Shown here in pieces: positions 121-13,817 of a stretch of 29,744 nt of DNA. The DNA lies in IMG/VR virus record IMGVR_UViG_3300033571_002403, positions 1-29,744 of that record; one strand, 5' to 3'. The notes below the pieces were generated by a model. It made no database searches. It had not been told where the DNA came from and worked only from the letters and a program-made list of their open reading frames with translations. The translations under genes were made by a program, and so were the position numbers. Origin of the DNA: a virus. Position 1 is the first letter of the stretch, and every line of letters starts with the position of its first letter.

Positions 121-601
121 TCTTAAACTCTCCTATCGGGATTCTCCATCCATCAATTTCTTCATCTTTCCAGTCATCTCTAAATGCTTCGTAAGCATTG
201 TACCAGCCAAAGATTTCTACTTCTGAGTAGTATTTAGTATCTAAAACCTTTGCACCTATGATTGCTTTCTTTGCATCTTTTCTCCATACTGGCACACTAT
301 CTTTTGTGCGAACAGTACGGACTTCACCAGATAAACCAACATCTGGAATCTCTTGCCTTGCTCCGTGTAGTTCGTTTGGATACCAAGGAACATTCCAGTT
401 GATATTGTAGTGCTTAGCCACTGCCCACTCTGCAACATTGGCTCTAACATTAGCAGTTAGTTCAGGTTCTAACTTATTATTCGCTGCACCAGCAGCATAG
501 TTAGGTCTATCTGTACTGCCAAACTTAGCCAGCCAGCGTTCCACTGCAAGCAGTGTACAAACTCTAACTTCATCCTTACTAAGTTTCACTATCGTAGTCA
601 T
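110..601 (-). CDS. Hypothetical protein, possible PD-(D/E)XK-like fold
   Basis: This is a soluble protein of 163 aa with a strong ribosome-binding site (GGAGGAGGAGA directly before the ATG at 601). I do not recognise the family with certainty. A central block, PDVGLSGEVRTVRTKDSVPV, has the order Asp...Glu-x-Arg...Lys followed by alternating hydrophobic strands (EVEIFGWYNA). That is reminiscent of the beta-sheet core of restriction-endonuclease-like proteins that abound in phages. No complete catalytic D-ExK set can be confirmed by eye. Its start overlaps the end of the sigma-like gene by 23 bp, so it belongs to the same leftward transcription unit. Confidence 0.75.
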   Translation of the reverse strand: MTTIVKLSKDEVRVCTLLAVERWLAKFGSTDRPNYAAGAANNKLEPELTANVRANVAEWAVAKHYNINWNVPWYPNELHGARQEIPDVGLSGEVRTVRTKDSVPVWRKDAKKAIIGAKVLDTKYYSEVEIFGWYNAYEAFRDDWKDEEIDGWRIPIGEFKNAQ

Positions 602-1280
602 TCTCCTCCTCCTTCATTTGTTCTATGCTGTCGTTTTCATAGTGTGGCCTATGGCCACCTAGTTTATTTATTAGTGTTCTGAGTGCACGTGCAACTTTCA
701 TACGTGCAGCATCAGATGTGATGTGTAGTTGCGAGGCCAGTTCACCTGGCCCGAAGTCTTCCATATACCTTAATCGCAACAGGTTCTGCTTTTCCTCTGG
801 CAGTTCATTGAATGCTTTGCTGATATCAGAGAAGTAAGCAATCCAGTTGCCGTGCTCGGCAGGGTTAGACCCACCAGCACCAGTCAAACTTAAGTCAGAT
901 TGAATCAGGTCAAGAGTAGCAACTAAGTCTATCTCCTCACTGACTTCTGACTTAAGTAAGTATGGAAGTACTTGCTCTACGATTGTCTTATCGTAGTAGT
1001 AGTTGTCATCAGGTGAGTAGCCAAGTATCTTGGACTTTTCCTTCTGACAGAAATCGTGGGCTGCATTACGCAGCGAGCGTGCAAAGAGTTTGTCTCCTTC
1101 CTTTGCATCTAACTTAGCCCATTCGTTTGTCTTCTTAGGGTGCGTGATAAACCACATCCATAGTTCCTGCTCAATATCGTCTTTGTCAACCATCAGATAC
1201 CGCTTGTGGAATTGACCAGCGATAGTACGGACTAGGGACTTGTAGTCATCGTAGATTTTCTCTGTGATTTTTATAGGCAT
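579..1280 (-). CDS. Sigma-70-like RNA polymerase sigma factor family protein
   Basis: A 233-aa protein with the two-domain look of small sigma factors. Residues about 31-80 resemble region 2 (VDKDDIEQELWMWFI followed by basic helices). Residues about 156-208 are a clear region-4 helix-turn-helix: FNELPEEKQNLLRLRYMEDF, then GELASQLHITSDAARMKVAR. The C-terminal tail is highly acidic. If active, it would bind host RNA polymerase and redirect transcription to phage promoters, perhaps the late operon. The gene follows the phosphoesterase with no real gap. The start ATG at 1280 has only a weak ribosome-binding site, so translation is probably coupled. Region 2 is divergent, so an anti-sigma or DNA-binding role is the alternative. 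Confidence 0.8.
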   Translation of the reverse strand: MPIKITEKIYDDYKSLVRTIAGQFHKRYLMVDKDDIEQELWMWFITHPKKTNEWAKLDAKEGDKLFARSLRNAAHDFCQKEKSKILGYSPDDNYYYDKTIVEQVLPYLLKSEVSEEIDLVATLDLIQSDLSLTGAGGSNPAEHGNWIAYFSDISKAFNELPEEKQNLLRLRYMEDFGPGELASQLHITSDAARMKVARALRTLINKLGGHRPHYENDSIEQMKEEENDYDSET

Positions 1281-3508: not shown

Positions 3509-3865
3509 TTACCACGGGTAATCCTCCAGTCTAGTGACTACATATGCTTTGTCAATTGATTTACCTCTAGCCTTAATGATAACTATTGGTTGTGGTTCTG
3601 TCTTAAGACCGCGATGCTTTGCATAATTGGCGGCTTCCACCTCAGCCTCTTTAAGCCAACCACTAAGGTCAATAGAATTACCAGCCCCAGGTGCTTTGGC
3701 TTCCAATACATAATCCGCAATAGTAGCCTGTACATACACATCACCTTCATCATTCTTGCCAGTACGCGCTAGGCGTTCTGCTTTTAGTTTGCGATTGCGA
3801 AACCAATCACGAACCTCAACCTCAAAGCGTGAGCCTCGTTGCTTATGTGATTTTCTACTTGTCAT
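3509..3865 (-). CDS. Holliday junction resolvase-like PD-(D/E)XK nuclease
   Basis: A basic protein of 118 aa with the layout of small Hjc-like resolvases: an N-terminal Gly-x-x-Phe-Glu helix (RGSRFEVEVRDWFRNR), then KNDEGDVYV carrying the catalytic Asp, then VLEAKAPG carrying the Glu-x-Lys pair. Such enzymes cut branched DNA formed during replication and recombination before packaging. Its neighbours are primase and ATPase genes, which supports this role. The start overlaps the end of a 41-codon membrane-protein gene. The GTCTTAAGAC sequence found in the spacers farther right also occurs here at 3600-3609, inside the coding region, probably by chance. Confidence 0.82.
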   Translation of the reverse strand: MTSRKSHKQRGSRFEVEVRDWFRNRKLKAERLARTGKNDEGDVYVQATIADYVLEAKAPGAGNSIDLSGWLKEAEVEAANYAKHRGLKTEPQPIVIIKARGKSIDKAYVVTRLEDYPW

Positions 3866-6591: not shown

Positions 6592-6620
6592 TAATACCCC
6601 CCCTCACGGGGGGGTTATTA
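6592..6620 (-). terminator. Intrinsic-terminator-like hairpin
   Basis: Seven C (6597-6603), loop TCAC, and seven G (6608-6614) form a perfect GC stem extended by A-T pairs (with one bulge) on both sides. On the leftward strand it lies 8 bp past the stop of the 68-aa zinc-ribbon gene and is followed by a long A/T-rich run (6562-6591). It probably ends the upstream transcript, separating it from the nuclease operon. Confidence 0.7.
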
Positions 6621-6627
6621 GTTATTA

Positions 6628-6834
6628 TCATAACTCAATTGTACCACCATCGGGATGGTCTAACGGAGTTGGGGCTGTTATCGGCGTGTCGCAGGAGTAG
6701 CAGGTGGCCTCCAGCCCCCACGCTGCTACCTCATATGTGTCAGGGTCAAAGAACACTGGCACATTCATCCACATATCCCCACAGTTGGGGCATTGTGCTG
6801 TTGGTATCCCTGTTGGGTCTATGCCAGTCACCAC
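6628..6834 (-). CDS. Zinc-ribbon protein (68 aa)
   Basis: Two CxxC pairs, CPNC (15-18) and CYSC (45-48), separated by a 26-residue beta-rich segment, form a plain zinc-ribbon. The start is GTG at 6834, overlapping the WhiB stop as TAGTG, or the next GTG codon. The tail is Pro/Thr/Asp-rich. The function is unknown. Tight coupling to WhiB suggests a transcription-related partner. Confidence 0.7.
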   Translation of the reverse strand: MVTGIDPTGIPTAQCPNCGDMWMNVPVFFDPDTYEVAAWGLEATCYSCDTPITAPTPLDHPDGGTIEL

Positions 6835-7349
6835 TACCCCTCAGAAGCCTCTGTACGGGACGCTAAGGCTCGTTTCTCCTTCTGCCTCTTGTTCACCCCT
6901 GCTGTGTTGCACTGACGGCAATGAAAGTTGACTCGGTTTGAATCCCTGTGAGTTATCAGCACATCGTATTCTACCTGCAACTTGTGACCGTGTAGGCATA
7001 CACCCTTACGGCTGTCTATGTATTCCCATAACAATTGCTCGTGGTATGGGTCTTTTAATCTGCTCACATATTGGTTAAAGGATACAGGTTCTGCCTTAAT
7101 ACCTAACTTCCTGCGCAACTTCCTGCGTTCACTGTGGTACTTGCCACCCCATATGCCCTCAACATCGTGTCTTAAGGCATAATCTAAACACTCTTGTTGT
7201 ACTGGGCAAGTGCCACATATTTTTTGTATTAGTTTGTAGTTATTCCTAAGGTAGTTGTGGCTGTTCTCAGGCTCAAAGAATAACTCCGTGTCTGAGCCAG
7301 CACAATTACCATTCATTGCTAGGTGTTTAAGTAGTTGGGCATCGTTCAT
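6834..7349 (-). CDS. whiB-like: WhiB-family iron-sulfur transcriptional regulator with C-terminal zinc-binding extension
   Basis: A 171-aa protein. Residues 16-54 hold the four conserved cysteines (Cys16, Cys45, Cys48, Cys54; CGTCPVQQEC) that ligate a [4Fe-4S] cluster, followed by GIWGG (65-69) and a basic patch (SERRKLRRKLG) typical of Wbl proteins, which bind the primary sigma factor. WhiB proteins are known from Actinobacteria and their phages, so this is the main host marker. Unlike typical 80-130 aa members, it carries another domain at about 115-160 with CLHGH and FHCRQC, a probable zinc-binding module. The start overlaps a 52-codon gene (ATGA). Its likely role is to remodel host transcription. 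Confidence 0.92.
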   Translation of the reverse strand: MNDAQLLKHLAMNGNCAGSDTELFFEPENSHNYLRNNYKLIQKICGTCPVQQECLDYALRHDVEGIWGGKYHSERRKLRRKLGIKAEPVSFNQYVSRLKDPYHEQLLWEYIDSRKGVCLHGHKLQVEYDVLITHRDSNRVNFHCRQCNTAGVNKRQKEKRALASRTEASEG

Positions 7350-7504: not shown

Positions 7505-7587
7505 ACCTTCTCCTTTTCTAATTTGTCGTAGTGTTCATCCCACTCTTTTTGAATCTTCCAGTAGTACTGCTCGTGAAACTCATCCAT
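7483..7587 (-). CDS. Hypothetical short charged protein (34 aa)
   Basis: It begins MDEFHEQYYWKIQKEWDEHY and is predicted as one amphipathic, highly charged helix. A very good ribosome-binding site (AAGGAGGAAGATA) lies before the start. The start overlaps the stop of the 80-aa gene and the end overlaps the next gene by 22 bp. Its reality rests on this spacing and the site; length alone would not support it. Confidence 0.5.
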   Translation of the reverse strand: MDEFHEQYYWKIQKEWDEHYDKLEKEKVCGTESQ

Positions 7588-7822
7588 TATCTTCCTCCTT
7601 CTGTAAGTCATCTTCAGCATCTAACATCATACCAAAGACAATTCCATCTAGTTCACGGGTCACATCTTTAAGTCCATCAACTGCGTTGGCAAGGTCGTTG
7701 ATACGCCAATCGTTCTCGTCCTTGTCCTCAAGAATGTCCCAAGTCTCCTCAAGAACATTCGTCAATCGTCTGCACGCACTGGCGAGGTCGCCAAAGTGCT
7801 TGACTAAATCTACTTCTGCCAT
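7580..7822 (-). CDS. Hypothetical acidic helical protein (80 aa)
   Basis: A Leu/Asp/Glu-rich protein, probably two or three helices (DLASACRRLTNVLEETWDIL; VDGLKDVTRELDGI), without recognisable motif. AAGGAGGATGA precedes the ATG. It is the first gene of the overlapping 7822-to-6628 cluster that leads to WhiB, after a structured spacer. The function is unknown. Confidence 0.7.
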   Translation of the reverse strand: MAEVDLVKHFGDLASACRRLTNVLEETWDILEDKDENDWRINDLANAVDGLKDVTRELDGIVFGMMLDAEDDLQKEEDNG

Positions 7823-7918
7823 TCATCCTCCTTGTTTTCTGTCTTAAGACAGCCTGTACTTATCTAGTATCAGGTGACGGCGCAAGATAGGCGAACTACC
7901 TTGCGACATCATCCGCTT
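7823..7918 (-). repeat. Spacer with GTCTTAAGAC palindrome and hairpin
   Basis: CTGTCTTAAGACAG at 7839-7852 is a perfect 14-bp palindrome with the core shared by five other spacers. At 7881-7905 the leftward transcript can form a 10-bp stem (CGCAAGGUAG with CUAUCUUGCG, one G-U pair) around a UUCGC loop. No gene is seen in this stretch. Confidence 0.7.
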
Positions 7919-8131
7919 CTAGTTAATCGGAAGGGTAGAGAATGCTTCGGCTAATGCTTCCGATAGCACCTCCTGCTGCGATGCACCAATTGGAATGTCG
8001 TTATTCTTTTCTGCATCGTACACTTCTACTGAATAAATCGTGTGCTTGCCATCGTTTTCTAGCATCTCACACGCACTCACATTAACAATCAAAGCCAGTG
8101 AGCGGTATCCTGTTAGTACTGGTAGTGCCAT
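7919..8131 (-). CDS. Hypothetical protein (70 aa)
   Basis: A small alpha-beta protein with no recognised family: MALPVLTGYRSLALIVNVSA, then a KHTIYSVEVYDAEKN strand pair and a C-terminal helix. It has no signal peptide; the N-terminal hydrophobic stretch is broken by charges. The start overlaps the upstream stop (TAATG) and GGAG precedes it, so it is translated with the 8131-8337 gene. Confidence 0.7.
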   Translation of the reverse strand: MALPVLTGYRSLALIVNVSACEMLENDGKHTIYSVEVYDAEKNNDIPIGASQQEVLSEALAEAFSTLPIN

Positions 8132-8337
8132 TAGTATTCTCCTAAGTAAGCGTGTAATTTATGACGGTCATCCTTCTGCCAAAGTGGCAAGAAAACAACT
8201 TCTTGCCCTTCCTCTGCTGCGTATTCTTTAACCTCTCGCTTGCAATCAAACATACCAATCTCACCGTTTTCATCGTTGAAAGTTTCATAATAACTTCCTT
8301 GACCATCGGCTCGGTTTAGTTCTACTGCTTCTATCAT
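8131..8337 (-). CDS. Hypothetical acidic protein (68 aa)
   Basis: Three consecutive ATG codons occur at 8343, 8340 and 8337. I choose 8337 because the AAAGG of the common leader motif then lies six bases upstream, similar to its neighbours; the longer versions are too close. The protein is charged, with FNDENGEIGMFDCKREVKEY and a C-terminal WQKDDRHKLHAYLGEY. No family is recognised. Confidence 0.7.
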   Translation of the reverse strand: MIEAVELNRADGQGSYYETFNDENGEIGMFDCKREVKEYAAEEGQEVVFLPLWQKDDRHKLHAYLGEY

Positions 8338-8343
8338 CATCAT

Positions 8344-8419
8344 CCTTTCATTTGATGCCTGCTAGTTGCAGGTGAAAGACCTCCTGTCTTAAGACCGAAG
8401 GTCAATCATCCACCTCTAA
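8344..8419 (-). repeat. Spacer with two hairpins including GTCTTAAGAC core
   Basis: CCTGC/GCAGG forms a 5-bp stem at 8358-8372. A second hairpin at 8378-8403 has outer pairs GACCT/AGGTC around the core GTCTTAAGAC (8386-8395). The leader motif ATGAAAGGATGA precedes the downstream gene. No coding sequence is seen. Confidence 0.7.
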
Positions 8420-8581
8420 CTAATCCATATTTCCTAATAACATTTGCAGAAATATTTTTGTTTTCATTAGTTCATCTCGGTAATGTGGGTAGTCATCAAT
8501 CTGCAACTCCCACAACTTAAGGTTGGCATCGTGCACAATATTAATCATTCCAGTGACATCTGCCTCGGTGTATCCCATCAT
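8420..8581 (-). CDS. Hypothetical protein (53 aa)
   Basis: It begins MMGYTEADVTGMINIVHDAN and continues as a probable helical hairpin ending KIFLQMLLGNMD. AGGAGGTAAATA gives a strong translation start. The start codons overlap the stop of the 31-codon gene upstream (TAATGATG). The function is unknown. Confidence 0.65.
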   Translation of the reverse strand: MMGYTEADVTGMINIVHDANLKLWELQIDDYPHYRDELMKTKIFLQMLLGNMD

Positions 8582-8676
8582 TATTTACCTCCTCGTAGTG
8601 CTTGTATCCCAATCCACGCAGCGTATCCGATGAAAGCCCACGCCGTCAACAGCCACGCATTTGCTAGTAGTTGCAT
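8581..8676 (-). CDS. Tiny membrane protein (31 aa)
   Basis: MQLLANAWLLTAWAFIGYAA is a Trp/Ala-rich hydrophobic helix, followed by a short basic tail (ALRGGK). It would span the membrane once. AAAGGGG lies before the ATG, and both ends overlap adjacent genes by one to three bases. The function is unknown; small membrane peptides of this type sometimes act in lysis or exclusion. Confidence 0.55.
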   Translation of the reverse strand: MQLLANAWLLTAWAFIGYAAWIGIQALRGGK

Positions 8677-8813
8677 CACTCTGCCCCTTTCATTGCTAGG
8701 TAAACTGGTGCAGCATCGCAATACCTGCAAGACTGCTCTGCTCCAAACTCTGACCAATAAGCGATGTCATTTGTGCCACATTCAAGGCACTCCACTTTCA
8801 TAGCCATTAACAT
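8676..8813 (-). CDS. Zinc-ribbon protein (45 aa)
   Basis: A minimal ribbon with CLEC (9-12) and CRYC (29-32). The start at 8813 overlaps the upstream stop (TAATG) with GGAGCA before it; internal Met codons could also serve. It resembles the C-terminal ribbon of the gene just upstream (8813-9085), which suggests duplication of a zinc-binding module. The function is unknown. Confidence 0.6.
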   Translation of the reverse strand: MLMAMKVECLECGTNDIAYWSEFGAEQSCRYCDAAPVYLAMKGAE

Positions 8814-9085
8814 TATTCTGCTCCATCCTTCTCGCAATCCCTGCAATACTTCAGGCCTGCGGCTACTGTTTCACCAACAATTACGCCAAACTCACCGCAC
8901 CAATCGCATCGCTCCACTTCGTTGCCGTCACTAATCGCCATCGCTAGGGCTGCGATGTCTGCGTCTAGTACATACATTTCAGCCATCATCGCCGCGACAC
9001 GGTCTAGTGTTGGCTTGTCTAGTATCTCCGACAACTCGGTTAGCAAACTAACCTGGTCATCTTGTGAGATTCCTGTGTAGTTCAT
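8813..9085 (-). CDS. Hypothetical protein with C-terminal zinc-ribbon (90 aa)
   Basis: The first 55 residues are helical (QVSLLTELSEILDKPTLDRV and an Ala/Met-rich helix). The C-terminus has CDWC (60-63) and CRDC (81-84). GAAAGGATGAACA precedes the start, matching the common leader motif of this region. No specific family is recognised. A nucleic-acid or protein-binding ribbon is the likely fold. Confidence 0.7.
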   Translation of the reverse strand: MNYTGISQDDQVSLLTELSEILDKPTLDRVAAMMAEMYVLDADIAALAMAISDGNEVERCDWCGEFGVIVGETVAAGLKYCRDCEKDGAE

Positions 9086-9170
9086 TGTTCATCCTTTCGT
9101 TGCTGTCTTAAGACAGGGGTTAAGTTAACCCACACCAACCACCGCAGAGCGGTGGATGATGCACGCCATC
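9086..9170 (-). repeat. Spacer with three palindromic elements
   Basis: CTGTCTTAAGACAG at 9103-9116 is identical to the palindrome at 7839-7852. It is followed immediately by GGGTTAAGTTAACCC (9117-9131) and a perfect 7-bp stem CCACCGC/GCGGTGG with a 3-nt loop (9139-9155). No gene is visible. Confidence 0.75.
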
Positions 9171-9353
9171 TTAACGCTTGCGCCCTGCAAATCCACGGGC
9201 TTGTCTAATCTTAATCGCTGTGAATCTGAAGGCAAGTACCGCCACCACAATTACCAACAATTTAACTAGATTAATCTCAACATAGAAAAACCCGTCAATA
9301 TTTAGCAGCAGGTAGAAATTGTCTAATAGTTCTATCTTTGCTAGTGCGTTCAT
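9171..9353 (-). CDS. Small membrane protein (60 aa)
   Basis: One transmembrane helix is visible at about residues 28-46 (NLVKLLVIVVAVLAFRFTA), followed by a strongly basic cytoplasmic-type tail (KIRQARGFAGRKR). The N-terminal half is aromatic and amphipathic. The start at 9353 carries the leader motif AATGAAAGGATGAAAG. The function is unknown. Confidence 0.65.
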   Translation of the reverse strand: MNALAKIELLDNFYLLLNIDGFFYVEINLVKLLVIVVAVLAFRFTAIKIRQARGFAGRKR

Positions 9354-9428
9354 CTTTCATCCTTTCATTGTCTGACCTCGTCAGGCACCGCCTTACGGTG
9401 CGACCCTCTTGCGAGGGTTTCGGTCTAA
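9354..9428 (-). promoter_or_regulatory. Spacer with three tandem hairpins
   Basis: Three stems lie in a row: CTGAC/GTCAG (9372-9384), GCACCG/CGGTGC with a 5-nt loop (9385-9401), and ACCCTC/GAGGGT with a 4-nt loop (9403-9418). Unlike the other spacers, it has no GTCTTAAGAC core, but it shares the AATGAAAGGATGA leader motif. Confidence 0.7.
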
Positions 9429-9743
9429 TTAATCGCGTGCTAGAAATACGCGCTTGGCAATGTCGTGGAATGGGTCAATTCCGTACCCAATAAGCATTTG
9501 CCTAATCAGCAACTGCATAATGCCATCTTGTAATTCGTAGGTGGCTTCCATAACTGAATCCTCCCATTCATTCTTTAAGCGTTCGGCTAATAAGTAAACG
9601 GGGGTGAGATTAATTTTTGTTGCTGTTTGCTCGGCTTCGTCTGCGTAATCCTGCAGCGTAGTCCACGCATCGGCATCATTTTCAACGACTAAGAGATAAT
9701 CCTCAATGAATTGCTCTCGTGCTGTTGGTGTTGTTGTTTGCAT
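9429..9743 (-). CDS. Hypothetical helical protein (104 aa)
   Basis: An acidic helical protein. REQFIEDYLLVVENDADAW near the start and GYGIDPFHDIAKRVFLARD near the end look like conserved phage/actinobacterial small-protein signatures, but I cannot name a domain. AAAGGATAAACA precedes the start. It is flanked on both sides by hairpin spacers, like a separate cassette. Confidence 0.7.
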   Translation of the reverse strand: MQTTTPTAREQFIEDYLLVVENDADAWTTLQDYADEAEQTATKINLTPVYLLAERLKNEWEDSVMEATYELQDGIMQLLIRQMLIGYGIDPFHDIAKRVFLARD

Positions 9744-9825
9744 TGTTTATCCTTTCATTTCCTGCCTAGTTGCAGGAGGATGGGCACCCTGTCTTAAGAC
9801 ACGATGCCCAACCTTCCGCCTCTAA
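9744..9825 (-). repeat. Spacer with two hairpins including GTCTTAAGAC core
   Basis: CCTGC/GCAGG (9761-9776) and a long hairpin at 9782-9809 with GGGCA/TGCCC outer pairs around the core GTCTTAAGAC (9791-9800). The order of hairpins is the same as at 8344-8419 and 10778-10856, but the outer stem sequence differs while remaining paired. Confidence 0.75.
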
Positions 9826-10083
9826 TTAAAGCATATTCCACAACACTTGGGAATCAAAACTCTTGGCGCACTCGCTGCCAACTGCCCAAAATCCTTGGCT
9901 TTCTTGTTCGCCTTCTTTGTCCTCGTAATCGGCGGCCAATATCTTGCCACTTGTTGAAACTTGAACCCATCGGGCTGTCTTGCCCGTCTTTCGGCCACAC
10001 TGGATGCAATAGTTGTCGCTTGCGTTCACATTTGGTTTTGGCTCTGCCCAATTAATCGCATCGCCTACCGTCAACTTTTCCAT
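9826..10083 (-). CDS. Hypothetical cysteine-containing protein (85 aa)
   Basis: CIQC at 26-29 and a lone EC at 71-72 could make part of a metal site. The middle (RWVQVSTSGKILAADYEDKE) is beta-rich. AAAGGATGAACAG precedes the start. Open frames exist on the opposite strand here but have no ribosome-binding sites. No family is recognised. Confidence 0.65.
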   Translation of the reverse strand: MEKLTVGDAINWAEPKPNVNASDNYCIQCGRKTGKTARWVQVSTSGKILAADYEDKEGEQESQGFWAVGSECAKSFDSQVLWNML

Positions 10084-10165
10084 CTGTTCATCCTTTCAGT
10101 TTTCTTCAGTCTTAAGACCGAAGAAGAAAGAGCAGGGGCGAACCCCTGCCCAATCTCCCTCCCTC
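10084..10165 (-). repeat. Spacer with two strong hairpins including GTCTTAAGAC core
   Basis: TTCTTC/GAAGAA flank the core GTCTTAAGAC (10109-10118) in a hairpin at 10102-10125. Next to it is GCAGGGG/CCCCTGC around CGAA at 10132-10149, a very stable hairpin (UUCG loop on the transcribed strand). The latter lies 16 bp past the stop of the SprT-like gene and could halt or trim that transcript. Confidence 0.75.
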
Positions 10166-10777
10166 TTAGTTGGTTGCTTGGTAATTCCACTCACATTCTG
10201 CGCAAATCACGCCCGTGTCTAGTACCTTCTGACTTAGGCGGATGATGTTGCCGCATTTGCAGGTGGCTTTGATGTTGTTTTTGTTGCGTGCTTTCGGCTT
10301 TTCTTTGCCTTCACTTGTGAGGGCTGCCGCGAACTTGATGCCATCTTCAATAAGTGCGAAGGCCTCAGCCCATCGGGTCACGCATTCATCTGGAACTTCA
10401 GTGTGTGAGTAGCCGTGAGCCTTGTTTTGCTGCGTGATTTCTAGGCCGAAGGCCTCGGCCTGCGCTTTGAAGGTTTGATTATGCCTGCCGTTGGTATCCG
10501 TACCCTTCACGCCGTCAGCGTGATTTTTGGCGTGTGCTGCCTCGTGGAGCAATGTTCCAAGTACAGCACGCGCACCGCGTGCCAGATTCTCACCGCTAAT
10601 CATTATCTCGTGAGCGTGAGTCTCACCATCTGACCAAGTCTGAGCGGGGGTGAAATGCCCCCAAGCCTTGGCGTCTCGCTTTACTACGATGACCGCCGCA
10701 GGCAAGCCCTCGGCCTCTGAAATCAGGCCGTAAGCCCTGCTAAGGGCGTCTACAGTTGGCGCAAGTGTTGCTTTCAT
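10166..10777 (-). CDS. SprT-like zinc metalloprotease-fold protein
   Basis: A 203-aa protein. LGTLLHEAAHAKNHADGVKG has the HExxH zinc site (HEAAH, 78-82), with a third ligand candidate His99 in the NGRHNQTFK segment, as in the SprT/Spartan family. The C-terminus carries a zinc-ribbon: CKC (173-175) and CAEC (192-195), also typical of the family. Family members act on DNA-bound proteins such as DNA-protein crosslinks, so a role in clearing blocks to phage replication is plausible. GAAAGGATGAGAAACT precedes the start. Confidence 0.85.
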   Translation of the reverse strand: MKATLAPTVDALSRAYGLISEAEGLPAAVIVVKRDAKAWGHFTPAQTWSDGETHAHEIMISGENLARGARAVLGTLLHEAAHAKNHADGVKGTDTNGRHNQTFKAQAEAFGLEITQQNKAHGYSHTEVPDECVTRWAEAFALIEDGIKFAAALTSEGKEKPKARNKNNIKATCKCGNIIRLSQKVLDTGVICAECEWNYQATN

Positions 10778-10856
10778 AGTTTCTCATCCTTTCATTTCCT
10801 GCTACTAATTGCAGGTGGAGGGTTTCAGTCTTAAGACCGAAACCTACCATCCGCCT
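10778..10856 (-). repeat. Spacer with two hairpins including GTCTTAAGAC core
   Basis: CCTGC/GCAGG (10798-10815) and GGTTTC/GAAACC around the core GTCTTAAGAC (10828-10837; whole hairpin 10821-10844). The leader motif AATGAAAGGATGA lies before the SprT-like gene. No gene is seen. Confidence 0.75.
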
Positions 10857-11081
10857 TCAGTTTTTGTACGCCCACGCTAGGCGGGTCTTAATTTCATTTC
10901 GGCAACTGCTGCACTTGAGTGAGTCAATTTCCACGCGCTTATTGTTCACGTACAGAACAGGAGCGCCGTCCAAAATGAAGAAATGTGGCAAACCGCCAAA
11001 CCGCATTTGAGCGCAGATTTCGCGCTCCTCGCGGGTTTGGGTTTTCATAAAATCGATAATTGGTTGAAGACTTGTGGCCAT
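10857..11081 (-). CDS. Hypothetical protein with CxxC motif (74 aa), first gene of the left arm
   Basis: A basic alpha-beta protein with CSSC at 57-60 and the strand pair HFFILDGAPVLYVNNKRVEI. The AATGAAAGGATGA motif lies upstream, as in the neighbouring cassettes. It is the gene closest to the central noncoding region, so it should be the first and earliest transcribed of the leftward genes. That makes a role in host takeover plausible but unproven. Confidence 0.7.
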   Translation of the reverse strand: MATSLQPIIDFMKTQTREEREICAQMRFGGLPHFFILDGAPVLYVNNKRVEIDSLKCSSCRNEIKTRLAWAYKN

Positions 11082-11101
11082 TTTGGGTCATCCTTTCATT
11101 A

Positions 11102-11157
11102 CTTACCGCCTCGGAAGGATTCCGAAACAGTAAGCAACGCAGGGGCTCGCGCCCCTG
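11102..11157 (-). promoter_or_regulatory. Two GC-rich hairpins upstream of the first leftward gene
   Basis: The inner palindrome TCGGAAGGATTCCGA is enclosed by CTTAC/GTAAG (11102-11134). It is followed by a 7-bp stem CAGGGGC/GCCCCTG with loop TCGC (11140-11157). In leftward transcripts they form the 5' leader of the 74-aa gene. The position mirrors the hairpins in the other spacers of this arm. Confidence 0.6.
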
Positions 11158-11386
11158 AATTGCTCGGATGTTTTTCCACTGTTGAGTTCCGTACGCCAGC
11201 GATGAGGCTGCTGGTAAAACTTGCCCATTTGTACGGCGGGCTCTGGGTCATGCGGGTGGCTGCGTGCGGGGGGCTAACCCCGCCTTCGTGTTCACTCCCG
11301 TGATGTTGAGGCCCAAGGTAGTGGATGGCATTGGGTAAGTCAAGTCTAAAAACCCCTAAACTCGGCGTGTCGTAAAAATTGGTCAA

Positions 11387-11421
11387 ATGTGCAGATGTTG
11401 AACAGATGTGCAGATGCACAT
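11387..11421. repeat. Iteron-like direct repeats with hairpin
   Basis: ATGTGCAGATG occurs at 11387-11397 and again at 11406-11416, starting 19 bp apart. The second copy continues into ATGTGC-AGAT-GCACAT (11406-11421), a 6-bp stem. Two copies are few, but such spacing (about two helical turns) suits binding of a protein to one DNA face near an origin or promoter. Confidence 0.5.
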
Positions 11422-11514
11422 ATTTAAACATTAGTCAACTTAAAACGCCGTTGTTTACCAAATTGTTATCAAATAATTAAGCCCCCCAAATAGGGCTAGG
11501 AGATAGACAGCATC

Positions 11515-11528
11515 CGAACAAGTGTTCG
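11515..11528. promoter_or_regulatory. Actinobacterial LexA (SOS) box
   Basis: CGAACAAGTGTTCG matches the actinobacterial/Gram-positive LexA operator consensus CGAACrnryGTTyG at every position. It sits next to a possible leftward -10 element (CATAAT, complement of 11535-11540), where bound LexA could cover the start point. A T-run follows on the plus strand, so a weak rightward terminator is the alternative, though no rightward gene lies upstream. Confidence 0.6.
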
Positions 11529-11534
11529 TTTTTA

Positions 11535-11540
11535 ATTATG
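11535..11540 (-). promoter_or_regulatory. Possible leftward early promoter -10 element
   Basis: Read leftward, the sequence is CATAAT in an A/T-rich setting, with a transcription start expected near the SOS box at about 11528. No good -35 hexamer lies 17 bp upstream, so the call is weak. TTGACT and TTGACC on the same strand (complements of 11433-11438 and 11381-11386) are other promoter candidates nearer the first gene. Confidence 0.3.
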
Positions 11541-11605
11541 CAAATCAAAACTTGTTTAATTAGTTGCAGAAAACTAGAATAAAAGTCTAATAAAATGTGT
11601 AATAA

Positions 11606-11647
11606 CTATCCACAAGATACACACAGGTGTGGATAACCTGTGGAAAA
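11606..11647. other. Cluster of DnaA-box-like 9-mers, putative replication origin
   Basis: TGTGGATAA at 11628-11636 is a perfect DnaA box (reverse of TTATCCACA). CTATCCACA (11606-11614) and TGTGGAAAA (11639-11647) each differ from the consensus by one base. Three such sites within 42 bp beside a long A/T-rich stretch (11440-11600) resemble a compact origin that recruits host DnaA. No phage-encoded initiator was recognised in the window. Confidence 0.5.
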
Positions 11648-11822
11648 CAAGACCCCCCTATGTTAAAATCAACATACCCCCCCATACCCCCTCTCTCACC
11701 CCAGAAATTTTTTCCAGTTATTTCCCCCCTAGGTAGTGGGTTTTCTAGTCATTAAGAAAATTCTCAGAAACTAAAGCGTTCGGTACCCGTTTTAGACGGG
11801 GTTAATATATATAGGGGGTAAT

Positions 11823-11828
11823 TATAAT
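11823..11828 (+). promoter_or_regulatory. Candidate rightward late promoter (-10 TATAAT)
   Basis: A perfect TATAAT lies about 108 bp before the terminase gene in a sequence otherwise rich in TATA. The -35 region 17 bp upstream (near 11800) has no TTGACA match, which would suit activation by a phage factor such as the sigma-like protein or WhiB. The expected start point would be just inside the first of the three tandem hairpins. Confidence 0.4.
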
Positions 11829-11829
11829 A

Positions 11830-11906
11830 GCGAGCCCTTGAGGCTCGCGTATTAAGCCAGGCTTGGTGCCTGGCAAATAATCAATACGAGCCGCTTAGCG
11901 CGGCTC
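11830..11906 (+). promoter_or_regulatory. Three tandem hairpins in the terminase leader
   Basis: GCGAGCC/GGCTCGC (11830-11848), GCCAGGC/GCCTGGC (11856-11874) and GAGCCGC/GCGGCTC (11888-11906) all have a perfect 7-bp stem and a 5-nt loop, are separated by short A/T linkers, and differ in sequence. The common architecture with different stems indicates a selected RNA structure. Candidates are mRNA stabilisation, protein binding, or a packaging (pac/cos-proximal) signal beside the terminase gene. Confidence 0.65.
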
Positions 11907-11936
11907 TATTAATATATAGATTAGGATTTTGACGAT

Positions 11937-13817
11937 ATGGCAGCAGGTAAAGGTGATGGTCATCACTTTGCGCAGAAGCAGCAGAAGAATCAAGAGGCCT
12001 ATCTAGCCCTAGTCAGGACTGGTGTAGCCCTCAGAGATGCTGCTGTCGCAGCAGGGGTCAAACCCCAAACGGTCTACACTTGGCGAACAAAAGATAAAGT
12101 ATTCGCCGACAAAGAACGAGATGCTCGGGCTGAGTATGAGCGACTTCGTGAGAAGGGTGCCCACTCAACCGCCACCATCCAGTTTGAGGAGTTCTCCGAG
12201 GAGTTCCTCAATATGAAGGTTTACCCTCACCAGCGCAACTGGATTGACGTGCTGGAGGATAAGGAGCCAACCTGGCTCCATCCTGGTATGACCTACAACA
12301 AAGCCAGCAAGAACAGACTTCTGATTAACGTGCCCCCTGAGCACGCCAAGTCAACCACGGTCACAATCAACTATTGCGTCTATCGCATTTGCAAAGACCC
12401 AAACGTCCGAATTATGATTGTGTCCAAAACCCAGAACTCCGCTGCTAAGTTTCTCTACTCTATCAAGCAGCGACTATCTCACCCACGATGGGCTAAGTTA
12501 CAGGCTACCTTTGGCCCGTCTGGTGGCTGGAAGCAAGATGCTGACCAGTGGAAAGCCAATAGCATCTACCTAGGTACCGAAGCCCGTGACTCGGACCAAA
12601 AGGACCCAACAGTTGAGGCCATCGGTATAGGTGGACAAATCTATGGTGCCCGTGCGGATTTAATAATCCTAGATGACGTAGTTGTAACCAGCAACGCCCA
12701 CGAGTGGGCTAAGCAACTGGAATGGCTCCAAAAAGAAGTGATTACCCGTCTTGGTAAGAATGGTAAACTTCTCATCGTAGGTACGCGCATTTCATCAAAT
12801 GACTTATATCGCGAAATCCGCCAGCCAGAACATTGGCAAGGTGGGCAGTCCCCGTTTACATACCTGGCGATGCCAGCAGTTTTAGAGTTTGCAGATAAAC
12901 CCGAAGACTGGGTAACTCTCTGGCCAAAGTCTGACCGTCCTTGGGATGGTGAGCCAGATGCAGAACCAGATGAAAATGGGGACTTCCCCAAATGGGATGG
13001 GCCAGCGTTGTTCCAACGCAGGTCTGAAGTAACCCCCAATACTTGGGCAATGGTTTACCAACAGCAAGATGTAGAGACTGATGCTATCTTCTCCTTAGCA
13101 GCAGTTAACGGTTCTATTAACCGTATGCGTAAGATTGGGCCATTAGACCCGAACAAGGCTGGTCATCCAACTGAAGGACAGTTCTACACCATTATGGGCC
13201 TAGACCCTGCGATGACTGGTAGGACTGCTGCGGTGATGTATTCCATTGACCGCAACTCTGGCAAGCGTTTTATCTTGGATGCTTTCAATATGAAAGACCC
13301 AACCCCTGGCAAGATTCGCGACTTGATTAGTCGCTGGATTGATATGTACCAGCCAGCAGAGTTACGCATTGAAACCAATGCGCACCAGAAGGCTTACCAG
13401 TTAGACGAAGACTTCCGCCAATACCTAGCAGGTAGGGGAGTGAAGTTCTCTGGCCAGTTCACAGGCAACAACAAGTGGGACACTGGCTTCGGTGTGGCTT
13501 CTATGTCAGACCTGTTTGGCACCGTACACCAGGGCAAGCATCAAAAAAATAATTTGATTGAACTGCCCTCCATTGATAACGAGCACCTAAAGGCTCTAGT
13601 CAATCAGTTAATTACCTGGTCAGCCGATACCAAAGGGCCTACTGACTTGGTGATGGCATTGTGGTTCTGCGAGATACGTGCCAAAGAAATTCTAAAAAAG
13701 AACAAGCAACGGACTTACCACGCTGGTGACCGTTGGAGTACAAGGCGAGCATACGAGTCTCAAGAGGTAGTAAGCCTCAATGAGATTCAGTATCAGCCCA
13801 ACGTCATCTATATGTAA
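11937..13817 (+). CDS. terL: Terminase large subunit with N-terminal HTH
   Basis: A 626-aa packaging motor. Residues 20-60 form a helix-turn-helix resembling terminase small subunits (GVALRDAAVAAGVKPQTVYT). The ATPase has the Walker A-like PPEHAKST (133-140) and Walker B DLIILDDVVV (241-250). The C-terminal RNase-H-like nuclease has GLDPAMTGRTAAV (Asp423), LRIETNAHQ (Glu479) and an Asp at DLVMALW. The enzyme cuts concatemeric DNA and pumps it into the prohead through the portal encoded just downstream. No separate small terminase gene is seen in the window, so the N-terminal HTH may take its DNA-recognition role. The start has only a weak ribosome-binding site (TAGGA well upstream). Confidence 0.93.
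   Translation: MAAGKGDGHHFAQKQQKNQEAYLALVRTGVALRDAAVAAGVKPQTVYTWRTKDKVFADKERDARAEYERLREKGAHSTATIQFEEFSEEFLNMKVYPHQRNWIDVLEDKEPTWLHPGMTYNKASKNRLLINVPPEHAKSTTVTINYCVYRICKDPNVRIMIVSKTQNSAAKFLYSIKQRLSHPRWAKLQATFGPSGGWKQDADQWKANSIYLGTEARDSDQKDPTVEAIGIGGQIYGARADLIILDDVVVTSNAHEWAKQLEWLQKEVITRLGKNGKLLIVGTRISSNDLYREIRQPEHWQGGQSPFTYLAMPAVLEFADKPEDWVTLWPKSDRPWDGEPDAEPDENGDFPKWDGPALFQRRSEVTPNTWAMVYQQQDVETDAIFSLAAVNGSINRMRKIGPLDPNKAGHPTEGQFYTIMGLDPAMTGRTAAVMYSIDRNSGKRFILDAFNMKDPTPGKIRDLISRWIDMYQPAELRIETNAHQKAYQLDEDFRQYLAGRGVKFSGQFTGNNKWDTGFGVASMSDLFGTVHQGKHQKNNLIELPSIDNEHLKALVNQLITWSADTKGPTDLVMALWFCEIRAKEILKKNKQRTYHAGDRWSTRRAYESQEVVSLNEIQYQPNVIYM

Follow-up and report, generated by a model that had tools for sequence, protein, structure and literature searches.

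In this actinobacterial phage, RNA structures probably separate the messages of the small early genes, since a structure that can fold in two competing ways recurs in the spacers of these genes where a relative carries a predicted self-cutting ribozyme. Within the window, that is the whole 29,744-nucleotide stretch of viral DNA analysed here, we assign these spacers to a family of cis-acting intercistronic RNAs that would punctuate a polycistronic early mRNA, with a rod or a hammerhead as the predicted cut site (probability about 0.5). The best reading of the repeats is that of bistable punctuation or processing elements for the early mRNA, of which the 10-bp palindrome GTCTTAAGAC is a lineage-specific cap. 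The computation reveals structure, covariation, an embedded stop codon, a dual complementarity and an exchange with hammerheads. If correct, this reading explains why a group of actinophages has structured spacers and defines an RNA structure family that is new and has no entry in Rfam.

Architecture of the intercistronic elements

The original prediction placed copies of GTCTTAAGAC in six spacers, at 7841, 8386, 9105, 9791, 10109 and 10828. All six are found there, together with the arms GACCT/AGGTC, GGGCA/TGCCC, TTCTTC/GAAGAA and GGTTTC/GAAACC, the two identical copies of CTGTCTTAAGACAG, the three neighbouring CCTGC/GCAGG hairpins and, after five of the six cores, the GAAAGGATGA-type ribosome-binding motif. 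The whole window holds seven exact matches to GTCTTAAGAC, against 0.02 expected from shuffles; the one beyond the spacer copies, missed originally, is intragenic, at 3600. The spacer genes are read from the minus strand, and the order on the transcript is therefore upstream stop codon, structure, ribosome-binding site and ATG. On this strand, the core hairpins at 8386, 9791 and 10828 each join the CCTGC hairpin in a single composite element of about 65 nt, capped by GTCTTAAGAC, which extends from the stop codon of the upstream gene as far as a small hairpin, P3, immediately before the ribosome-binding site. The features are as follows:

3600–3609, minus strand: seventh GTCTTAAGAC, inside gene 3509–3865 (minus strand), without complementary arms.
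7839–7852, minus strand: separate small hairpin, CTGTCTTAAGACAG, immediately preceding AAGGAGG, the ribosome-binding site of gene 7580–7822.
7853–7924, minus strand: composite rod/P3 element with another cap, CGCAAGGUAG..CCUAUCUUGCG, and no GTCTTAAGAC; R1 score 29.1 bits, whole-spacer fold z = −3.45.
8356–8421, minus strand: composite rod/P3 element with GTCTTAAGAC cap at 8386–8395, upstream of gene 8131–8343; R1 score 71.7 bits, predicted fold, TAG stop just 5′.
9103–9116, minus strand: separate small hairpin, again CTGTCTTAAGACAG, immediately preceding the GAAAGGATGA that belongs to gene 8813–9085; the spacer has two more hairpins upstream.
9759–9827, minus strand: composite rod/P3 element with GTCTTAAGAC cap at 9791–9800, upstream of gene 9429–9743; R1 score 71.5 bits, the minimum free energy (MFE) fold being the full rod.
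10084–10165, minus strand: spacer containing two hairpins, the terminator-like GCAGGGGTTCGCCCCTGC and another that bears GTCTTAAGAC (10109–10118) beside the ribosome-binding site.
10798–10862, minus strand: composite rod/P3 element with GTCTTAAGAC cap at 10828–10837, upstream of the SprT-like gene 10166–10777; R1 score 56.5 bits.

The spacer at 7841 thus carries, besides its core, a further copy of the composite element. The spacer 10084–10165 probably belongs, by inspection, to a class B with the core in the P3 position, like L024:8183–8247 and L021:9042–9106 in related contigs (designated L).

The rod is composed of helix a, which contains the stop codon, an internal loop, helices b and c and the capped 10-bp hairpin, and folds into some 19–24 bp. 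Its 3′ strand has two conserved partners, one upstream, including the stop codon, and one downstream, with which it forms P3, and the two pairings are mutually exclusive. In folding calculations the rod is the MFE structure of most spacers, and P3 often forms once the stop region is blocked. Neither rods nor P3 are hairpins directly followed by a U run, as expected of intrinsic terminators: a purine-rich ribosome-binding sequence follows instead, and among the spacers discussed only 10130–10151 shows the terminator arrangement.

When the rod element was compared with the 4227 Rfam models, none matched at the gathering threshold and only weak, inconsistent matches appeared at E ≤ 5. This result, the conserved unpaired positions of the rod and its occurrence in the place of hammerheads (see below) might point to an undescribed class of self-cleaving ribozymes. 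Such a class is very improbable, as the rod consists largely of a long helix broken by small internal loops and has no evident conserved catalytic core.

Covariation and the embedded stop codon

The covariance model R1 recovers the element in 13–14 of 50 records (the terL family and connected contigs), 2 of the 14 on single weak matches; about 13 related contigs share it. The spacers of these relatives keep their pairing even with changed arms and core, as in L010:8222–8288, and arms and cap also vary between copies while pairing stays. In the pairing test, 88.8% of the cells are paired, against 72.6% in shuffles and 37–47% with the partners slid, and across 19 aligned elements double changes occur at 15 of the 24 pairs, a count that related sequences inflate. 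Pairing is imperfect at some positions: 10-57 fails in 4 of the 19 elements and 16-51 in 6. These data strongly support the selected structure originally proposed as an RNA hairpin with a UUAA loop; the conserved unit is nevertheless larger, consisting of the rod and its competing hairpin, and the cap is optional, being absent from L010:8222, L078:854, the window element at 7857 and Streptomyces phage Manuel, the one cultured phage checked for it.

We considered whether GTCTTAAGAC is a DNA operator or a stoperator-like site for a phage regulator, merely framed by hairpins. The core is perfectly palindromic and occurs far more often than chance predicts; some copies are intragenic, and the copies at L018:8075 and L069:1381, which have no arms, lie just after TTGACA, within a likely promoter that precedes the first early gene. 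This explanation is nonetheless unlikely: the orthologous or sister elements L010:8222, L082:8013 and L078:854 lose the palindrome and retain RNA pairing, Manuel has no core, and neither has the presumed promoter region of the window (11431–11937). Moreover, single-base variants mostly retain a wobble pair in the RNA (GTCTTAAGGC on the transcribed strand), with one counterexample, L069:26, and intragenic copies can be a codon coincidence, as in ct2KA10. In cluster A mycobacteriophages, the stoperators are 13-mers that lack symmetry and depend on orientation (PMC9283540). The window resembles them in its many short repeated sites within the short intergenic spaces of an actinophage, but its core is a 10-bp perfect palindrome, not an asymmetric 13-mer, and other hairpin caps can replace it.

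The upstream stop codon occupies a fixed position of the element in 29 of 34 copies, and 23 of these 29 stops are TAG, compared with about 21% TAG among the genes of the window. The P3 loop tracks the changes of the stop codon (UAG/CUA, UAA/UUA and UGA/UUAG); in the element 10798–10862, the embedded TGA of gene 10857–11081 pairs with the P3 loop UUAG. P3 itself is stronger than what is obtained when its 3′ strand is shuffled (median fraction, 0.009). A pseudoknot between the stop codon and an intact P3 loop is possible for some copies, but elsewhere CUAA is located within the P3 stem (L018:9669 and 9426) and several loops are too short; we therefore favor the rod/P3 exchange, which fits all copies. 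Stop-codon readthrough was rejected, the frames past the stop being mostly closed within 8 codons.

Exchange between rods and hammerheads

One spacer without the core, 9354–9428, is located between genes 9429–9743 and 9171–9353 and contains a predicted ribozyme:

9366–9425, minus strand: type II hammerhead ribozyme; RF02276 31.7 bits, E = 2.6e-5 on the stretch.

A type II hammerhead is characterized by three stems, of which stem II is open, and between them the conserved CUGANGA and GAAA segments and a site for cleavage after UH. The core at 9366–9425 is complete (CUGACGA, GAAAC and GUC, with stems I, II and III). Further hammerheads were found in L010 and L013, and stem I carries a compensatory change from CACCG/CGGUG in the window to CACUG/CAGUG in L010. 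The scores, 31.7 bits in the window and 31.3 and 30.7 bits in the relatives, lie under the Rfam gathering cut-off of 37. By inspection, loop I has no convincing 4-bp match to the 3′ tail, a pseudoknot that is common in type II hammerheads and not universal.

Hammerheads and rods occupy equivalent places. The spacer orthologous to 9354–9428 of the window carries a rod in L021 (9048–9127). The reverse exchange is seen upstream of the orthologous SprT-like genes, with a hammerhead in L013 (2572–2626) and a rod in the window (10798–10862). For tandem hammerheads of phages, a role in dividing long phage transcripts into mRNAs of gene length has been proposed (PMC3088659). The consensus hammerhead in 9354–9428 and those of L010 and L013 resemble the intergenic type II hammerheads of phages and prophages described there, whereas here most spacers bear a non-hammerhead rod at the position; the passages of that paper considered here describe no hammerhead/rod exchange within one orthologous spacer. 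If true, this replacement of a ribozyme by a non-ribozyme structure, and the reverse, would be direct evidence bearing on the role of phage hammerheads.

Possible punctuation of the early mRNA

We infer cleavage, its enzyme and an effect on expression, according to the following scheme. The element starts at the stop codon of the upstream gene and finishes beside the downstream ribosome-binding site, with the long rod as one state and, as the other, the 3′ strand of the rod folded onto the downstream sequence as P3. The message may be cut at the rod, for example by RNase III, or at the hammerhead in some spacers. The upstream product would then keep a hairpin after its stop codon, and the downstream message would have its 5′ end protected by P3. 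With a ribosome at the stop codon, the rod would be blocked and P3 favored, so that cutting or accessibility could depend on translation.

The early mRNA of phage T7 has intercistronic RNase III processing signals, which are irregular hairpins between early genes. The rods resemble them as irregular intercistronic hairpins whose length is about 20 base pairs or greater (about two helical turns). They differ from these signals in enclosing the stop codon of the upstream gene within the helix and in having a 3′ strand with an alternative partner that competes for it, and their cleavage is putative.

The stop codon within helix a and the conservation of two mutually exclusive pairings would also suit a switch without cutting, in which the terminating ribosome opens the rod, and P3 and the neighbouring pyrimidines alter access to the downstream ribosome-binding site, coupling the output of each gene to translation of the preceding one. 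Blocking the stop region indeed lowers the mean predicted accessibility of the ribosome-binding site from 0.78 to 0.55. However, a shuffled strand from the P2 hairpin to the ribosome-binding site gives a nearly equal drop (occupied, 0.52 versus 0.59 shuffled; free, 0.76 versus 0.73) and the exchange with hammerheads is left unexplained, which makes such a switch somewhat unlikely. Sequestration of the ribosome-binding site was rejected, its predicted effect being no better than that of shuffles.

PeSL cassettes of T4-type phages are stem-loop-bearing spacers tied to gene gain and loss. The window spacers could likewise serve mainly as homology for shuffling small genes: the SprT-like gene between two of them is missing from L010, and non-equivalent spacers of the window and L010 align at 76–77%. 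We find this quite improbable, since the arms diverge with pairing kept, which homology alone does not need, and a spacer and its neighbour genes are often both orthologous. Unlike PeSL cassettes, the window spacers are without an evident promoter and have the stop codon embedded.

In cluster K mycobacteriophages, the inverted-repeat SAS/ESAS elements lie directly before the starts of non-structural genes, and some SAS have the stop codon of the preceding gene within the repeat (PMC3203893). The window elements are similar in both respects. The authors of that study found little support for ESAS repeats as mRNA hairpins, whereas the pairing of the window elements clearly covaries. The 13-bp SAS GGGATAGGAGCCC, a motif located near starts, has no match with up to 2 mismatches allowed, and paired 17-bp ESAS-type repeats of one consensus are absent near start codons: the arms differ and are conserved only in pairing.

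A pattern scan of bacterial genomes found no element, and a terL search of bacterial genomes retrieved a single contig, assigned by binning to a betaproteobacterium, which lacks the element. A nucleotide search of named phages with the cassette had no match. Several other pattern-scan matches, L102, L105, L106, L108, L111, L113 and L114, are due to chance and lack the element.

More tentatively, the bistable element may extend from uncultured contigs to cultured Streptomyces phages, its stop codon pairing with the P3 loop and the terminating ribosome selecting either a rod that can be cut or a hairpin that protects the 5′ end, with hammerheads as an interchangeable version. In Streptomyces, the permutation test of stop–loop matching did not reach significance in two cruder versions, one based on a crude window and the other on a P3 caller that selected P2. 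The later, loop-based test did not reach significance in the freshwater set, whose loops and stops are mostly alike. In the Streptomyces phages, this loop-based test, to be weighed together with the two cruder versions that preceded it, indicates that P3 loops correspond to the stop region of their own element (7 of 20,000 permutations). Among the early spacers of Streptomyces Beephvirinae, 28 of 30 fold with z < −2; as these cultured phages share the architecture, it can be tested on ordinary laboratory hosts.

A capped rod in the early spacers

The window genes between 110 and 11431 lie nearly all on the minus strand, and the spacers were therefore read on that strand, where they run from stop codon through structure and GAAAGGATGA-type ribosome-binding site to start codon. 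The 10-bp palindrome GTCTTAAGAC occurs seven times in the window, against 0.02 expected, and the six copies that the original prediction had placed in spacers between 7841 and 10828 are all present; relatives also carry it, in the early region adjoining terminase. The hairpin predicted around this core is borne out, but alignment of 19 copies shows that at 8386, 9791 and 10828 it caps a longer element, which RNAalifold folds as one rod. Its conserved features are, from 5′ to 3′, UUAG, a two-base gap, nCGG, A, three paired bases, a capped 10-bp hairpin, three paired bases, CUGn, a two-base gap, and CUAR. Full-rod cells are paired in 88.8% of cases, against 72.6% in shuffles and 37–47% when partners are slid, and double changes are found at 15 of the 24 pairs. 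The expected preservation of pairing in related spacers holds in the virus contig L010, whose element at 8222 pairs throughout although both arms and the cap differ from those of window 10798, with which it shares the upstream gene end.

The cap itself is optional: it is GUC-UCAC-GGC in L010:8222, GUC-UUAG-GAC in L082:8013, a larger loop in L078:854, and of UUCG type at window 7857. Since Streptomyces phage Manuel has no GTCTTAAGAC, this sequence looks like a cap peculiar to the window's lineage and inessential to the element itself. The palindrome might serve as a DNA site as well, since in two relatives it stands beside TTGACA in a likely early promoter; gene-internal copies weigh less here, because the compared contig ct2KA10 (L129) has four (1025, 1868, 11343, and 20392) in apparent coding sequence with no structure. 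These seemingly derive from SLKT/GLKT-type codons and show that the core is able to recur for coding reasons.

A search of 50 records with a covariance model of the composite element located it in 13–14 of them and in no other terminase relative. The rod matches no Rfam family, and the papers retrieved contain no description of it. Identification as SAS/ESAS or as a stoperator fails on the defining features tested. The rod is best called a new member of a known group, the structured elements between the cistrons of phage early mRNAs.

The embedded stop codon and a competing hairpin

The stop codon of the upstream frame occupies element positions 4–6 in 29 of 34 copies, a set that includes near-identical ones and two copies off by one base; these two belong to the class with the core in the position of P3, the competing short hairpin (a class exemplified by L024:8183–8247 and L021:9042–9106). 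These 29 stops comprise 23 TAG, 4 TAA, and 2 TGA, whereas TAG accounts for about 21% of stops among window genes. The other copies use an earlier stop, and UUAG or AUAG is nonetheless kept.

The 3′ strand of the rod (CCUGn...CUAR) also pairs with the sequence that follows, and the resulting hairpin, P3, lies next to the ribosome-binding site. Its stability greatly exceeds that of versions with a shuffled 3′ strand (median fraction 0.009, n = 16 copies), and its stem changes are compensated (CCUGC/GCAGG, CCUAC/GUAGG, UCUGG/CCAGA, CCUAGG/CCUAGG, CCUGAG/CUCAGG, and CCUGG/CCAGG). The predicted best fold is the full rod in most spacers; with the first 21 bases blocked, mimicking a ribosome that occupies the stop codon, P3 is predicted to form in many. 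The P3 loop also matches stops other than TAG, with UUAA facing UUAA in L021:9296 and CUGA facing UUAG in window 10798 and UUUAG in L010:8222; L024:7043, with an A–C mismatch, is the exception. When a copy's stop region is paired with the 3′ strand of the same copy, the duplex is stronger than in pairings across copies (5/20000 permutations).

Exchange with a hammerhead ribozyme and proposed function

Spacer 9354–9428, without a GTCTTAAGAC core, contains a type II hammerhead in which all the catalytic core nucleotides are present; its score is 31.7 bits, under the gathering score of 37. L010 carries the same hammerhead with a compensatory change in stem I, and the related contig L013 carries another. 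L021 has a rod in place of the hammerhead in the corresponding spacer, whose two flanking genes are orthologous to those in the window (56% and 52% identity). In L013, the hammerhead precedes an ortholog (41% identity) of the SprT-like gene that follows rod 10798 in the window. Because these orthologous spacers hold the opposite kind to the window, rod and hammerhead are, by sequence comparison, interchangeable parts. According to a proposal in PMC3088659, phage hammerheads cleave long transcripts to yield gene-length mRNAs, which makes this exchange the best clue to function.

Two further observations concern these spacers:
9366–9425 (minus strand): the 3′ segment of the hammerhead (CUGACGAGGUCAG) is able to form, instead, a P3-like hairpin beside the ribosome-binding site, and this hairpin would compete with the active ribozyme.
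10166–10777 (minus strand): the SprT-like gene and its spacer are missing from L010 (8222–8288); a cassette has been gained or lost cleanly at an element boundary.

The elements are probably mRNA punctuation: the polycistronic early transcript would be cut in the spacer, each product retaining an end hairpin. This reading fits the layout of the spacers, in which the stop codon is followed by a hairpin, a junction, a second hairpin, and the ribosome-binding site; it also fits the replacement of the rod by a self-cutting ribozyme in some spacers. A rod of ~20 bp with internal loops is the type of substrate cleaved by RNase III. The Streptomyces enzyme cuts mRNA (PMC2936110), and RNase III would be a candidate cutter of the rod. 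A pure translational switch acting via the ribosome-binding site is less likely, since its predicted effect there is no larger than in shuffles.

Streptomyces phages and the genomic setting

The window is a contig from an uncultured virus. A WhiB-like gene (6834–7349), an L5/D29 gp49-like gene, and a terminase and capsid whose nearest named phages are an uncultured Caudovirales record and Streptomyces phages point to an actinobacterial host. The Beephvirinae phages Manuel, WRightOn, Abafar, Immanuel3, and FlowerPower, which infect Streptomyces, resemble the window in genome plan, with early cassettes running leftward. Folds with z < −2 occur in 28 of 30 early spacers of these phages, and many show the same architecture. 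At Manuel 40187–40258, for example, UGCUAGG pairs with CCUAGCA at the stop codon and also forms the tip of the hairpin CCCCU-GCU-AGGGG. When P3 is called as the best hairpin downstream of the main stem, its loop in the Streptomyces spacers matches the stop region of the same spacer better than the stop regions of other spacers (4.30 versus 3.62; 7/20000 permutations); two cruder versions of the test were not significant.

Other features of the window are as follows:
579–1280 (minus strand): sigma-70 region 4 domain (Pfam PF08281, E = 2.5e-7) encoded by a gene adjoining a metallophosphoesterase; in the Streptomyces relatives, an annotated sigma-K factor gene likewise lies beside a metallophosphoesterase.
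6596–6615: perfect ACCCCCCC/GGGGGGGT hairpin, terminator-like in both strand directions.
11600–11660: divergent region with TTATCCACA-like (DnaA-box-like) clusters, also seen in the relative L018 (~8840–8900); a replication origin is possible there.
11099–11163 (minus strand): strongest fold among the spacers examined (z = −6.8), with a 20-bp hairpin and a second hairpin, then GAAAGGATGA; the overlapping 110-aa frame (11099–11431) may be no gene.
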